Virus record (IMG/VR): IMGVR_UViG_3300047376_000089
Coordinates: 1-52,045 of that record
Origin: a virus
Length of the DNA stretch: 52,045 nucleotides
Reading direction: 5' to 3' (one strand)
Position numbers and translations under genes: made by a program. The notes below the pieces were generated by a model. That model saw only the letters and a list, made by a program, of their open reading frames with translations. It searched no databases and was not told where the DNA came from. This document shows, piece by piece, positions 4,893 through 8,542 of the stretch (its first letter is position 1; each line of letters begins with the position of its first letter).

Positions 4893-5186
4893 TTACCATT
4901 TAACTTTGTGTGACCAATACTTTGCACTTAGCTTACTTGTTGGTTTACCCTGTGCATTGTGTCTTGCATAATAGCTCTTCTTACGAGCTTTGTCTTTTGC
5001 TGATGTAGGATTTTTACCTGCACCACTTACTCCTTGTTGTCCAAACCTAATAAACTTATACGTGTCTCCTTCTTTAGCCATAACACAATGAGACTTAGTT
5101 GGGTGCTTCGGTGTACGTTTAGGTTTATTAACACCTGTCAGCCCTTCGGCTTTCATTTTAGTTTTGACTCTTTCAGGAACTGCCAT
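4893..5186 (-). CDS. Small conserved basic phage protein (97 aa)
   Basis: A basic protein with a distinctive pattern (KFIRFGQQGVSGAGKNP, then ARKKSYYARHNAQGK and a KLSAKYWSHKVKW ending) that I recall from other tailed phages of marine bacteria, including cyanophages. It may belong to a DUF family, but I am not certain which. Lys, Arg and aromatic residues dominate, fitting a nucleic-acid-binding role. Its ATG lies inside the end of the upstream gene (14-base overlap) after GGAAGG. Confidence 0.72.
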   Translation of the reverse strand: MAVPERVKTKMKAEGLTGVNKPKRTPKHPTKSHCVMAKEGDTYKFIRFGQQGVSGAGKNPTSAKDKARKKSYYARHNAQGKPTSKLSAKYWSHKVKW

Positions 5187-5385
5187 CTGTCCAACCTTCC
5201 ATACGCATCGCCCACTCTACATGTTCTAAAGTAAATGGTTTACCATAGTGAGCCTGTACAGCCTCACGTACATAGTATACATCACTGTGGGGAATATGTA
5301 AATCTTCAATGTTACCGTCAAGTACGTGTTTGTAAAACTCTTCAAGAACATTGTCAGTATATAGTTTTACTGATTTTTTACTCAT
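5173..5385 (-). CDS. Hypothetical protein, first gene of minus-strand left arm
   Basis: A 70-residue protein (MSKKSVKLYTDNVLEEFYKH and so on, ending MRMEGWTDGSS) of unknown function, predicted to be mainly helical. I chose ATG 5385 rather than the in-frame TTG at 5391; no strong ribosome site is visible. It is the first gene downstream of the operator-like repeats and the possible promoter at 5434-5568, so it may be expressed early on this strand. Confidence 0.6.
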   Translation of the reverse strand: MSKKSVKLYTDNVLEEFYKHVLDGNIEDLHIPHSDVYYVREAVQAHYGKPFTLEHVEWAMRMEGWTDGSS

Positions 5386-5433
5386 TGTCAAGAACTTTCG
5401 TAATATTTATACAAAAATAATTAATATACTGCT

Positions 5434-5532
5434 CACTTATAGTGTTACATATAAGTGTATCTTAGTTTAGTATAATTATATTTAAGGTATATAACATTTA
5501 AGTGTATCACTTTAAGTGAGTCTTAGTTTAGT
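5434..5532. repeat. Operator-like repeats upstream of minus-strand arm
   Basis: Three kinds of repeat overlap here. An inverted repeat has 8-base arms CACTTATA and TATAAGTG (5434-5441, 5450-5457). A second palindrome, AAGTGTATCACTT, lies at 5500-5512. A 20-base direct repeat differs at only two positions (5452-5471 and 5513-5532; ends in CTTAGTTTAGT). All share the AAGTG half-site. This looks like a binding region for a dimeric regulator controlling the minus-strand genes. Confidence 0.5.
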
Positions 5533-5540
5533 TATATATA

Positions 5541-5568
5541 GTTTTACACATTTCACTCCTCGTGTCAA
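5541..5568 (-). promoter_or_regulatory. Possible sigma-70 promoter for the minus-strand left arm
   Basis: On the minus strand a perfect TTGACA (5568-5563) is followed after 16 bases by TAAAAC (5546-5541). A second TATAAC with weak -35 lies at 5536-5531. The operator-like repeats are immediately downstream, so a bound regulator would interfere with transcription. Confidence 0.4.
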
Positions 5569-5814
5569 CCCCTAATCGTAAAAATAAGAATACTGTTCTT
5601 CATTTGCCATGTTTTACAGAACCATGTTCTATGTAAACCAGTATATACGTATTGTGGTTAACACTCCATTTTCCTGATCTGTGTGTGTATACATGTATAT
5701 ATACCACGTGACCCCCACTGGCCCTTGCCTACCCCTGCTCTCACTGCGCAATTCCGTGCATCATGCAACGTCATGGCGTGTGGTGAAATCAAATCTGCTG
5801 TCTCATCTCACCAT

Positions 5815-6060
5815 CATATCAAAGATATGTTTAGTTTCAATAGTTTACTTGTCTACGACAACTGTTATGGAATCAGTTGCCACTCTAAAGAGTGTAAGAA
5901 TAGCTGACATATCACACCAAAGGTGTGTTCAAGTGCCGATGCTTAAAATACACCACCCACCATCTACGATGGTCAGATGCATGATCCTACAAGCCGTGCA
6001 TAGCTCTGCCAATAGTCAATCCAACTGTCCAACGTTGGACACTTCACATCTAAAGATGTG
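5815..6060. repeat. Set of five short hairpins with one design
   Basis: Five hairpins share the plan CA-stem-C, a small A-rich loop, G-stem-TG. They are CATATC-AAA-GATATG (5815-5829), CACTC-TAAA-GAGTG (5881-5894), CACACC-AAA-GGTGTG (5913-5927), ACCATC-TAC-GATGGT (5959-5973) and CACATC-TAAA-GATGTG (6045-6060). Stem bases differ between copies but always in matched pairs, so pairing is kept while sequence changes. Confidence 0.6.
6026..6041. repeat. 16-base palindrome, copy 1 (intergenic)
   Basis: TGTCCAACGTTGGACA is a perfect palindrome. Near-identical copies (GTCCAATGTTGGAC core) lie at 6727-6740, 7203-7216 and 8446-8459, so this is a dispersed repeat confined to the control region and first early genes. 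Confidence 0.7.
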
Positions 6061-6237
6061 GCAGAATTGTCACAGTTATCTTGCAATCCTAGGCCAGAAG
6101 CCTCGTGAGTTTAGCACACGTACTTCAAAAATATATGAAATATTTTTTGCAGTCACCTGTGAAACGACAGGCGCAGAGGATCACAGGAAGCAGCAAATTC
6201 AACTTATACTATCTTCTATTCGTTTTTAATGATAAAG

Positions 6238-6266
6238 TATATCTCACTATTTGTGAGAGATATACA
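6238..6266 (+). promoter_or_regulatory. Hairpin in leader of first rightward gene
   Basis: GTATATCTC and GAGATATAC are 9-base complementary arms about 40 bases before the ATG at 6308. It lies between the hairpin set and the ribosome site (AAAGGAGG), so it would be in the mRNA leader or act as an operator. Confidence 0.45.
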
Positions 6267-6307
6267 TTTCTCATATAAAAACAGAAGATAGATAAAGGAG
6301 GCCAATC

Positions 6308-6925
6308 ATGGCAAATTCAATCTCAGTAAGCAAAACAACTCAAGAAGGAACTTCTTTGGATACTCTAGTAAAAGAGGGCAAAGCCCTGTACAACATTTGG
6401 AAACAGACTAACAGTCTGAAAGACTCAACAAAAGCCAAGGGCTTTGACACAAGGCTTGGCAAACTACTTGTTGAGCTAAAGGCTCAGTCTAGCCTAGATA
6501 GTGGTCAAATCAGTAGACAAACCTTGGCAACATATCATGTTGACAAAATAGATCGTAGAAGACGATCAGAAGCTTTGTGGTTCGTTGAAAACGAAGTTGA
6601 ATGTCGAGAGTTCATAGAAGCCTCAAAGAAGGGCTTCACATCTCTAACTGCTCTTCAAGCAGCAATGCGTAAAGCTGCTAAAGCAGATGATGCTGCTGCT
6701 GAACCAACCACTGCTAAAGCAGAACCGTCCAATGTTGGACAGTCTAACGGAGTTAAGGACACTGGTTGGGTAGATGTTGACAAGGGAACGTTCTCACTTG
6801 GCAATACTCGTACTGCAATCGTTGACGCAATCTTTGCACATTGCAACGATCACCAGATTGACATTGACACAATCATTGCTGACTTACAGTCAAAAGCAGC
6901 TTTAGCAAACAAGGTGGCAGCATAA
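6308..6925 (+). CDS. First rightward early protein, unknown function
   Basis: A 205-residue protein with a strong ribosome site (AAAGGAGG). The N-terminal half is helical and charged (LVKEGKALYNIWKQTN; HVDKIDRRRRSEALWFVENE) and could bind DNA. An Ala-rich linker follows (about 118-140), then a C-terminal region ending IIADLQSKAALANKVAA. The linker contains the residues SNVGQ, encoded by one copy of the dispersed palindrome (6727-6740). As first gene of the early arm, next to the control region, it may be a regulator or host-takeover protein; I recognise no family. Confidence 0.7.
   Translation: MANSISVSKTTQEGTSLDTLVKEGKALYNIWKQTNSLKDSTKAKGFDTRLGKLLVELKAQSSLDSGQISRQTLATYHVDKIDRRRRSEALWFVENEVECREFIEASKKGFTSLTALQAAMRKAAKADDAAAEPTTAKAEPSNVGQSNGVKDTGWVDVDKGTFSLGNTRTAIVDAIFAHCNDHQIDIDTIIADLQSKAALANKVAA
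6727..6740. repeat. Palindrome copy 2 (inside first early gene)
   Basis: GTCCAATGTTGGAC, followed by A as in the other copies. It lies in frame in the linker region and encodes part of SNVGQ. Confidence 0.7.
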
Positions 6926-6952
6926 GCTGTCACTAACATAGGAGTTATAAAA

Positions 6953-7111
6953 ATGATTACATTTTTAATGTTTATGATTAATGGTATGGCAATGGTAACT
7001 TTGTTTTTGATTGCTATGACAGTTGGAACGTTACAAGCAATACCTAGTATGTTAGTTGTGTTTGTGATTGTAATGGCAATCAACTACCTAGTGATGTATA
7101 TGAATGGATGA
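6953..7111 (+). CDS. Small Met-rich membrane protein (52 aa)
   Basis: A short, strongly hydrophobic protein (MITFLMFMINGMAMVTLFLI; later PSMLVVFVIVMAINYLVMYM) with two predicted membrane spans and an unusually high methionine content. A GGAG ribosome site lies seven bases or so before the ATG. It follows the first early gene by 27 bases. Small two-span proteins in early phage operons often act on the host membrane, for example in superinfection exclusion; here that is only a guess. Confidence 0.6.
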   Translation: MITFLMFMINGMAMVTLFLIAMTVGTLQAIPSMLVVFVIVMAINYLVMYMNG

Positions 7112-7134
7112 ACTTTAGTAGTCACATAGTTAAA

Positions 7135-7163
7135 TAACACTTGATACTTTAGTGAAAGTGTTA
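7135..7163. promoter_or_regulatory. Intergenic inverted repeat TAACACTT / AAGTGTTA
   Basis: Two exact 8-base arms (7135-7142, 7156-7163) separated by 13 bases. The AAGTG half-site is the one in the operator-like region at 5434-5512, so the same regulator may bind both. Confidence 0.4.
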
Positions 7164-7202
7164 TATAACATATGTAGACACTAACAAACTATAACTGAAA
7201 CC

Positions 7203-7216
7203 GTCCAATGTTGGAC
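7203..7216. repeat. Palindrome copy 3 (leader of gene at 7236)
   Basis: GTCCAATGTTGGAC followed by A, about 20 bases before the ATG at 7236 and just ahead of its ribosome site (CGGAG). Confidence 0.7.
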
Positions 7217-7235
7217 ACTTTAAACGGAGTTTATT

Positions 7236-7463
7236 ATGAGAATATTAAGAAAATCAGTATTAACTGGTAACGTCAATACAATGGATATCAATGTAACTGA
7301 TGAGCAGTTTACTAAATATCTAGGTAGTAATGAGTGCATACAAAATGTACTGCCTGACTTATCAGTTGATGAACGTGAGTTTCTTATATCTGGTATTACA
7401 CCAGATGAATGGGATAATACATTTTCATTTACTGCAATCTCTCTAAATGCGGAGGAAGCATAA
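7236..7463 (+). CDS. Conserved small early protein, unknown
   Basis: A 75-residue acidic protein. The C-terminal part (MDINVTDEQFTKYLG, then IQNVLPDLSVDEREFLISGI and TPDEWD) is a pattern I recall in many marine phage small proteins with no assigned function. It overlaps the next gene by one base (TAATG), so the two are probably co-translated. The leader contains a copy of the dispersed palindrome. Confidence 0.68.
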   Translation: MRILRKSVLTGNVNTMDINVTDEQFTKYLGSNECIQNVLPDLSVDEREFLISGITPDEWDNTFSFTAISLNAEEA

Positions 7464-8047
7464 TGTCTGTAAGACAAATACTAAAAGTATACAAGTCGGC
7501 TACTGCTGACGAAGTGAAGCATGGCATGAAATGGTACGCCATTGCCAAACGTGATAGCACTAAGGTAGCCAAGGAATTTGGTATCAGTATAAATACTGTT
7601 GTCGGTGTAGTTGCTGCACTGTCACCCAACTTAGGTTGGAATATCAACATCAAAGCTGCTCGTATTCTAGTCGAGTGCTTTGCCAATGGTGGTGCAATGG
7701 ATGACGTTACTGTGTCAGCCTATCCACAGAACAAGCTGAAAGCTTGGGAAATGCTTGAACAAAAAATGGTTCGTAAGAAAACCATTATGGCTAAACTCAA
7801 TGGCCCTAAGACTACTGCGTTCTTTGCCAATATCATTGGCCTTGACGTTGTGACAGTTGACGGTCATGCTAAGAACATACATGATGGACTACGTAGGGTT
7901 CTCAAGAACAGTAACGTAGGTGTCAAGGAATACAGAACCATATCGGAAGCTTACTACAAAGCTGCTGACAAGGTGGGTATCAAAGGCTATCAAATGCAAG
8001 CTATCACTTGGGTAGCATGGCGTAGACAACATAACATTGCGAGGTAA
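7463..8047 (+). CDS. Conserved phage protein, glycosylase-like helical fold possible
   Basis: A 194-residue protein conserved in many phages of environmental bacteria; I believe it is placed in a DUF family (perhaps DUF7178). Features are VVAALSPNLGWNINIKAARI, AYPQNKLKAWEML, KTTAFFANIIGLDVVTVDGH and the ending GYQMQAITWVAWRR. The helical pattern with a conserved VTVDGHA and QAITW recalls helix-hairpin-helix DNA glycosylases, but I cannot point to a complete catalytic motif. A role in DNA modification or repair is therefore tentative. Confidence 0.72.
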   Translation: MSVRQILKVYKSATADEVKHGMKWYAIAKRDSTKVAKEFGISINTVVGVVAALSPNLGWNINIKAARILVECFANGGAMDDVTVSAYPQNKLKAWEMLEQKMVRKKTIMAKLNGPKTTAFFANIIGLDVVTVDGHAKNIHDGLRRVLKNSNVGVKEYRTISEAYYKAADKVGIKGYQMQAITWVAWRRQHNIAR

Positions 8048-8051
8048 AATT

Positions 8052-8354
8052 ATGATGGACGATTTACACAACAACATTAATGTTTGGCATGGCACTACAA
8101 AAATATCTATATGCCAACACTGGGATACACCTAGTGATAGGCTTAATGGTGATGCTGCTATGCAAGAGGTAGGTATTATACCTGATGATGGTGACTGGGG
8201 AAATATGCACATTGAAAAATACTCTGCCAGTTTAGATCATCTTATAGATGTATTGGAAGGAATACGACATGAAATTGAAGCAAAGAAATATAACGAATCC
8301 AGTGGCAAAGGCGATGCTAGAGCAACGCAAACCGCCACAGGTAGTGCCACCTAA
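8052..8354 (+). CDS. Hypothetical early protein (100 aa)
   Basis: Starts MMDDLHNNINVWHGTTKI after GAGG; an in-frame TTG at 8037 is less likely. The protein is acidic in the middle (IPDDGDWGNMHIEKYS), with a helical LDHLIDVLEGIRHEIEAKK and a Ser/Thr/Gly-rich tail. The last part is overlapped by another small gene in a different frame (8269-8424). No family recognised. Confidence 0.6.
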   Translation: MMDDLHNNINVWHGTTKISICQHWDTPSDRLNGDAAMQEVGIIPDDGDWGNMHIEKYSASLDHLIDVLEGIRHEIEAKKYNESSGKGDARATQTATGSAT

Positions 8355-8424: not shown

Positions 8425-8542
8425 GTTTGCAAGCACCAAAAAAGTGTCCAATGTTGGACAGAAACCTAAACGTGATGAGCACAAACGTTTACGTAAAATT
8501 GCACGTAAAAACAAAAGCTTAACACAAAAATTATCAAACTAA
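8396..8542 (+). CDS. Small basic protein with SNVGQ segment (48 aa)
   Basis: A 48-residue protein (MRYEMQNFVKFASTKK, then VSNVGQKPKRDEHKRLRKIA and a Lys-rich end) preceded by AAGGAG. Residues 18-22 (SNVGQ) are encoded by a copy of the dispersed palindrome, in the same reading frame as in the gene at 6308. Strongly basic, so nucleic-acid binding is possible. Confidence 0.58.
   Translation: MRYEMQNFVKFASTKKVSNVGQKPKRDEHKRLRKIARKNKSLTQKLSN
8446..8459. repeat. Palindrome copy 4 (inside small basic gene)
   Basis: TGTCCAATGTTGGACA, with one central base pair different from copy 1. It lies in coding sequence and gives SNVGQ. Confidence 0.7.

Follow-up and report, generated by a model that had tools for sequence, protein, structure and literature searches.

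In a clade of HMO-2011-type phages, an array of stem-loops was found at the start of the rightward early operon, where it extends through a leader of ~650 nt, through the first gene of the operon, g205, and, at falling density, into the next genes. The stem-loops have 5–7 Watson-Crick pairs and a loop of 2–5 nt, mostly of 3 nt, and they are variable in sequence but conserved in shape. The window, by which we mean the whole stretch of DNA that was analyzed (52,045 nt, IMGVR_UViG_3300047376_000089), was assigned by sequence comparison to the HMO-2011-type phages, which one published account presents as a marine viral group that is dominant and broadly distributed (PMC9038755). Its ribonucleotide reductase shares 86% identity with the enzyme of Roseobacter phage CRP-1 and 64% with the HMO-2011 enzyme, and its divergent region has matches in CRP-1, CRP-345 and HMO-2011. 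The divergent gap is bordered on the left by a leftward gene for a 72-aa protein (5173–5391, minus strand) and on the right by g205, the first rightward gene, which encodes 205 aa (6308–6925, plus strand) and whose coding sequence contains many mini-hairpins and one copy of the GTCC element described below. The cumulative GC skew of the window has its minimum near 6 kb, which fits either an origin or a divergence point, and a sigma70 scan identified no promoter above chance. At 5420–5550 there are repeated TTAAGTG/CACTT palindromes with TCTTAGTTTAGTATAATTATA, common to the window and HMO-2011, that resemble promoter-operator units serving the leftward genes. A sequence-only reading of the window had placed a local cluster of hairpins in the divergent control region of an HMO-2011-type phage; the phage type and the region stand, but the cluster is not local, since the array continues into the genes.

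Seven short perfect stem-loops were identified at 5815–6060 of the window, six with a 5'-C...G-3' closing pair and one that is a GTCCA-AYRT-TGGAC palindrome. All five stems that had been reported earlier are where they were said to be, and two more, at 5849–5861 and 6026–6041, had been overlooked. On the plus strand, the six C-closed hairpins are CATATC-AAA-GATATG (hairpin 1, 5815–5829), TTGTC-TAC-GACAA (hairpin 2, 5849–5861), CACTC-TAAA-GAGTG (hairpin 3, 5881–5894), CACACC-AAA-GGTGTG (hairpin 4, 5913–5927), ACCATC-TAC-GATGGT (hairpin 5, 5959–5973) and CACATC-TAAA-GATGTG (hairpin 6, 6045–6060). Covariation was detected at all six pairs of hairpin 1; hairpin 3 is paired in 96% of cells, its five pairs having undergone 68 double changes, and hairpin 4 in 84% of cells, with compensated changes at its loop-proximal pairs. 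Hairpins 5 and 6 are represented by their perfect stems in the window and by the hairpin counts of the relatives. Within 5800–6099 there are four C-closed stems of ≥6 bp with loops of 3–4 nt, versus 0.03 expected from dinucleotide shuffles, a number reached by none of 5000 shuffles, and five perfect stems of ≥6 bp of any kind versus 0.2; shuffled sequence does not, therefore, yield as many hairpins. A long imperfect hairpin on the plus strand (6208–6291) lies directly 5' of the ribosome-binding site of g205 and also occurs in relatives, with HMO-2011 keeping its shape in a wholly different sequence.

Two scans of viral contigs yielded the relatives that were examined, 78 distinct intergenic regions (counting that of the window), each flanked by both genes. 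Across them, C-closed hairpins of ≥6 bp numbered 153, versus 8.8 after shuffling, and hairpins were present in the leader in 76 of the 78 and in the gene in 74 of the 77 g205-bearing relatives. The leader hairpins recur at fixed positions relative to g205 (at approximately −493, −459, −427, −395, −349 and −263), with their stems and loops replaced, and these positions are conserved across relatives whose g205 proteins have 40–60% identity. The linkers between hairpins 1–4 are 19 nt long, or 18 nt before hairpin 4 in the window. In an alignment of 54 sequences, four leader hairpins covary with a score of 0.325, versus 0.129 in shuffles, none of 500 of which reached it, and versus 0.03–0.10 when the partners were slid by 1–3 columns; cells that had changed on both sides and were still paired numbered 150, versus 55 in shuffles, so that conserved pairing does exist in related genomes. 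In a pairwise test, changed pairs were compensated in 35% of cases in the leader, 16% in g205, 10% beyond g205 and 4% in the left-hand control. The covariation exceeds that of both the shuffles and the slid controls, as is characteristic of selected nucleic-acid secondary structure, and pairing in the leader is under selection. Such selection had also been proposed in the sequence-only reading, and correctly, although from matched changes between the stems of one genome, which are not covariation; real covariation is seen only between relatives.

The hairpins had been thought to be limited to the gene-free stretch, but they extend across the g205 coding sequence and into the next genes. The strong array spans 5815–8100 on the plus strand, with a weaker excess to ~10.7 kb: there are 17 perfect stems of ≥6 bp versus 2.6 at 5.6–8.1 kb, and 10 versus 8.1 at 11–23 kb. 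In 2-kb profiles the hot region occupies 5.5–10.7 kb of the window and 0–6 kb of CRP-1 and CRP-345, and in HMO-2011 it spans the end of the record. Among the 78 relatives the excess begins ~560 nt before g205, is equally strong within g205 and fades over the next ~2 kb, and on the leftward side, at 1–1.5 kb, there is none. Hairpins at 8.3–11.3 kb of the window are kept no better than chance hairpins and, therefore, we do not claim this distal part of the array. Examples within g205 lie at 6342, 6375, 6404, 6431, 6472, 6528, 6551 and 6581 (6342–6595, plus strand). When 74 g205 genes were pooled and compared with synonymous-codon shuffles, 826 hairpins were observed versus 161.5 (z = 57), and the excess was also evident in single genes, with 10 versus 1.8 in g205 of the window and 17 versus 1.7 in gp74 of HMO-2011. 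Because it persists against synonymous-codon shuffles, the excess is not forced by the encoded protein, and synonymous codon choice in g205 is selected for pairing. Stem density over the first 30 nt of ORFs is reduced (0.08–0.11 versus 0.16) and a GGA lies within the loop of a ribosome-binding-site hairpin at 44 of 292 starts, versus 0.6 after shuffling. An example is TAAAC-GGA-GTTTA (7221–7233, plus strand), whose loop presents the Shine-Dalgarno core of the gene at 7236.

The leader also has three sequence-conserved motifs. The first is a 5' block, TGTAAACCA..GTGGTTAACACT..CTGATCTGTG (5632–5685, plus strand), with the inverted repeat GTAAACCA/GTGGTTAAC, which is probably a promoter/operator or a start region. 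The GGTTAACACT block is present in the leaders of relatives and in those of HMO-2011, CRP-1 and CRP-345, and is missing from CRP-603, CRP-2, CRP-207, CRP-13 and CRP-235; in four named phages it precedes the CAACTG motif by a constant 203–204 bp. Within 5632–5685 we also observed a strongly conserved, AT-rich TGTAAACCAC-TATATATGTAAT-GTGGTTAACACT dyad followed by CCTGATCTGTG, together a candidate promoter/operator or origin core. The second motif, a CAACTG-TTATGGAAT-CAGTTG-CC stem-loop beside hairpin 3 (5859–5881, plus strand), is nearly invariant and is the most conserved of the leader: in 54 sequences, including HMO-2011, the CAACTG-TTATGNNAT-CAGTTG-CC stem is invariant except in one cell, and the stem-loop was found in at least 120 viral contigs with a single match in 84,980 prokaryote genomes. 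Its stem overlaps the 3' arm of hairpin 2 and, therefore, the two structures are mutually exclusive. In one phage without g205 (IMGVR_UViG_3300037991_000675, here L499) the CAACTG motif, at 487–509, appears inverted relative to the neighboring homolog of the 72-aa gene. The third motif, apparent in the alignment of relatives, is a 3' domain (6107–6184, plus strand) in which GAGTTTAGCRCAYG.ACTTC is followed by a hairpin that can be swapped (in the window, AAAAATAT-ATGAA-ATATTTTT) and then by GAAACGACAGGCGCAGAGGATCAC. A GAAACG..GGAT motif is present in HMO-2011, CRP-1 and CRP-345, but not in the five phages without g205.

A leader with a 5' part of fixed length, three conserved motifs, 19-nt linkers and swappable peripheral helices could be a discrete structured RNA of ~600 nt, riboswitch-like or an ornate phage non-coding RNA, that is the functional unit and to which the coding hairpins are secondary. 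As a large and conserved candidate RNA, carried by phages and having peripheral helices that can be swapped, it would resemble GOLLD and ROOL. However, the array continues into protein-coding genes; the excess of perfect 6-bp stems is at least as high in the g205 coding sequence (19-fold) as in the leader (16-fold), and in the former it is selected at synonymous sites. A search of Rfam returned no match at gathering score and none that was credible, including to GOLLD or ROOL, up to E = 5, which agrees with the earlier statement that no named element of this kind is known. We consider a leader RNA of this type unlikely, and the self-contained non-coding RNA that had been suggested is not what we found, as the hairpins continue through g205 and track that gene.

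A different kind of hairpin within the array is the GTCC element, GTCCA-AYRT-TGGAC, whose sequence is retained. The window has four exact copies, all in the early region and none assigned to a strand: TGTCCA-ACGT-TGGACA in the leader (6026–6041), a copy within g205 (6727–6740) that encodes SNVGQ of a low-confidence linker, one upstream of the 7236 gene (7203–7216) and one within a coding frame (8446–8459). Allowing ≤2 mismatches there are six copies versus 0.62 expected. Relatives have several copies along the early region, up to seven, and HMO-2011 has its own version, GTCCG-ACAG-CGGAC, four times, whereas none was found in N4. The copies at 6727–6740 and 8446–8459 encode the same SNVGQ peptide in two different genes, and for that reason the element looks like a nucleic-acid signal that overrides coding.

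The rules of the variable hairpins were determined by counting each distinct hairpin once. Enrichment is confined to loops of 2–5 nt, with a peak at 3 nt (8-fold in the leader, 7-fold in the gene), and does not extend to loops of 0–1 or 6–10 nt. GNA triloops account for 25% versus 7% expected and C-G closure for 50% versus 16%, there is no enrichment of GNRA or UNCG tetraloops, and on the plus strand GAA loops are far commoner than TTC loops. A reading of the variable hairpins as operators in double-stranded DNA was ruled out, as their half-sites vary and loops of 0–1 nt are not enriched. Among near-perfect stems in the leader, perfect stems are enriched 15.6-fold, those with one G.T 2.3-fold and those with one A.C 1.1-fold, with A.G and C.T below 1, so that G.T is the exception to stems with one mismatch having no clear excess. 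Distinct stems of 6, 7 and 8 bp number 338, 102 and 10, respectively, those of 8 bp being rarer than expected from chance extension, and G+C content is 0.44, 0.40, 0.34 and 0.21 in stems of 5, 6, 7 and 8 bp, a trend that is lost after shuffling. Since stem length falls as G+C rises, hairpin stability appears to be moderate, and set rather than maximized.

Replication template switching, a documented source of perfect hairpins, which it also maintains (PMC8794818), is suggested by the sequences to help make the changes in stems and loops, because loop inversions are present and half-broken intermediates are few relative to the compensated forms. At the same stem we counted 21 pairs of loops that are exact inversions versus 28 pairs with a single change, and fully compensated forms are at least as numerous in the leader as those with a single mismatch (239 versus 229), whereas in the left control they number 5 versus 143. 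Inversions observed in the leaders of relatives include TAAA/TTTA, AAA/TTT and TAC/GTA, for example in the hairpins at −395 and −427, as expected of template switching. It could be proposed that the array is mainly a functionless by-product of this process, in which near-palindromes are perfected and loops inverted in one step, and the perfect stems, compensated changes and loop inversions are indeed those of the template-switch hairpins of Monttinen and Loytynoja (PMC8794818). What distinguishes the array from them is that its stems do not grow but are bounded in size and stability, with stem length offsetting A+T content, that it is conserved in position at 40–60% g205 identity and avoids start regions, and that it tracks one gene, being missing from phages that have related replication genes and lack g205. 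Since stem size is bounded, template switching is not the whole story, and we regard the by-product explanation as quite unlikely.

The array, its leader motifs and the GTCC element are distributed among phages as g205 is. The gene is present in the window, CRP-1, CRP-345 and HMO-2011, where its homolog is gp74 (HMM E = 2.6e-13), and is missing from CRP-603, CRP-2, CRP-207, CRP-13 and CRP-235; the first four of the latter also have no array, leader motifs or GTCC element. CRP-235 (MZ892989) is an exception in having a moderate, diffuse, genome-wide excess of short-loop hairpins without g205, and this phage and the N4-like phages, which likewise have a genome-wide excess of mini-hairpins and apparently no g205, count against the link. 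A co-occurrence analysis anchored on the helicase was significant, but many of its contigs without g205 were incomplete and it was replaced by one anchored on the leader. In that analysis, the 72 leader-bearing loci with g205 had a mean of 14.4 hairpins in the next 2 kb versus 1.5 expected, and the two viral loci that carry the leader motif but lack g205 had three and one. One of these loci is IMGVR_UViG_3300037558_000012 (here L199), which has 87–91% identity to the window across most of the early and replication genes that they share; the other, L499, is a distant, rearranged phage. At 152–900 L199 has no g205, has kept the CAACTG leader motif, has no 6-bp leader hairpins past the motif and shows no hairpin excess downstream of the leader; judged from its sequence, it is a natural loss of g205. 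Apart from L199, the link to g205 is confounded with phylogeny. As far as sequence comparison goes, the array, the three leader motifs and the GTCC element are shown to be inherited together with g205, and a phage apparently carries the array solely when it encodes g205. This suggests that array and g205 are mutually dependent, the best evidence being L199, which is one close case.

Among the closest known counterparts to the hairpins are the early promoters that the virion RNA polymerase (vRNAP) of Schitoviridae phages uses, as in N4, whose stems are of 5–7 bp. The two share the short stem, 3-nt loop, C-G closure, GNA loop and free stem sequence, whereas they differ in that N4 has three hairpins and a giant virion RNA polymerase, and the window phage has dozens of hairpins, in the leader and in coding sequence, and no RNA polymerase was found. 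Despite that shared stem and loop geometry, it is very improbable that the hairpins are promoters for a virion-borne polymerase of the N4 type. No PHROG RNA polymerase match was obtained among the large ORFs of the window, no RNA polymerase motif set was present in any ORF of ≥150 codons except for a match in the DNA polymerase, and the 1144-aa protein carries no such motif. Moreover, the sites number dozens, many of them within genes, and their loop polarity would yield antisense transcripts. Promoters of the N4 type are expected at few sites upstream of transcription units, with conserved −11/−8 bases and +1C, whereas the loops and stems of the array vary. As the tests made found no phage RNA polymerase, the early RNA is probably made by that of the host. 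In N4 itself (NC_008720, 1–12000) there are 33 stems of 6–9 bp with loops of 3–5 nt versus 10, also within genes, and the early genes show 22 versus 8.2 (z = 5.2) in the synonymous-shuffle test, with loops of ≥6 nt barely enriched. The genome-wide ratio for loops of 3–5 nt is 2.3–3.3 in the N4-like phages N4, LUZ7 and DSS3P2, versus 0.7–1.4 in the control phages T7, SP6, phi29, lambda, T4, SIO1, phiM6 and HTVC010P. The phenomenon may, therefore, be wider than the g205 clade. The promoter hairpins of N4 have been described as having a 7-bp stem and a loop of 3 nt that contains a sheared G:A pair, as tolerating changes of stem bases if pairing is kept, and as being extruded at physiological supercoiling (PMC4496689).

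One reading, which we put forward tentatively and at somewhat less than an even chance, is that g205 reads hairpin shape, not sequence, and that dozens of hairpins have been built into the leader and, through the choice of synonymous codons, into the early ORFs, marking early messages, or their DNA, as a class. The g205 protein has no Pfam or PHROG match, and its AlphaFold model (mean pLDDT 73) is all-helical with a low-confidence linker and gave no PDB match at E < 0.1; relatives share three adjacent invariant arginines, R84–R86. An all-helical fold, the three arginines and its place as the first gene make g205 a plausible shape-reader. In a narrower and correspondingly more tentative form, drawn by analogy and the mechanism that we prefer, the stem-loops would be recognized in early RNA as a dispersed analog of boxB/N. 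They would act as the nascent chain leaves the host RNA polymerase; g205, the first gene made, would recognize them by shape, with the GTCC hairpins as putative sequence-specific sites of higher affinity, and would load along its own and the neighboring early transcript, altering elongation, stability/decay or translation. Autoregulation by g205 is also suggested, as the strongest array is on its own leader and gene. We infer every step from g205 binding onward.

Whether the hairpins act as RNA or DNA is a choice that the data do not settle, although we lean to RNA. Hairpins of the array occur only to the right of the divergent region, in line with the direction of transcription; the thinning of stems past ORF starts and the Shine-Dalgarno cores in loops are RNA-like; and among near-misses in the leader G.U numbers 65 versus 28 expected and A.C 41 versus 38. 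Other results point away from RNA: G.U versus A.C was 54 versus 49 in a hairpin-by-hairpin test of the leader and their ratio was 0.73 in the pairwise test, and the triloops, GNA and C-G closure without a GNRA or UNCG excess are DNA-like. The evolutionary G.U:A.C ratio of ~1 makes no strand call, near-miss counts favor the plus strand, and RNA folding z-scores favor the plus strand in the leader and the minus strand in the coding sequence. It is possible, if somewhat unlikely, that the hairpins instead act as DNA, in a single-stranded plus strand or as cruciforms extruded by supercoiling, their shape being read by g205 or a replication protein; the single strand could be, for example, the displaced strand, or the template for lagging-strand synthesis, at a fork moving rightward from an origin within the divergent region. 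The use of N4 promoter hairpins by N4 vRNAP and EcoSSB is a parallel, and the loop rules, the strict Watson-Crick pairing with little preference for G.U and the GC-skew minimum would all fit. However, only the rightward side is affected, GAA greatly exceeds TTC in plus-strand loops, which is unexpected of a symmetric cruciform, and no phage RNA polymerase that would use such promoters was found in the ORFs searched. Stems that thin after start codons and Shine-Dalgarno cores in loops also speak against DNA, although RNA side effects could cause both. A replication origin, a candidate in the sequence-only reading along with a decoy for an RNA-binding protein, does not by itself explain hairpins that are rightward only and made by synonymous codons.

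The known hairpin-binding antiterminators act at a single site or a few, rather than at dozens. In lambda each nut site contains a single boxB, which has a specific pentaloop. The likeness of the array to lambda N/boxB lies in an early gene for a small protein with an Arg-rich segment and in short hairpins with purine-rich loops in the leader and downstream, whereas here there are many triloop stems of variable sequence and g205 has no detected homology to N. Transcripts of T4 also have many small stable stem-loops, of the CUUCGG kind with UUCG tetraloops and mostly intergenic, but the array has no UNCG or GNRA enrichment and its hairpins are inside genes. Hairpins, promoters and RNA polymerase all go unmentioned in a 2022 comparative paper on HMO-2011-type phages, and nothing comparable came up when the literature was searched for arrays of hairpins within the early coding sequence of phages. 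Hairpins as such are not new; what appears new is their arrangement, in which hairpins conserved in shape run through a leader and genes and are linked to one protein. Such arrays can be detected by a palindrome scan resolved by loop length in combination with synonymous shuffles, and the one described here points to the related, unexplained hairpin excess of N4-like phages. HMO-2011 and CRP-1, which have cultured hosts, are tractable models for its study. If our reading is true, a virus would be marking its own nucleic acid in a new way, with an array that is inherited together with one small unannotated protein.
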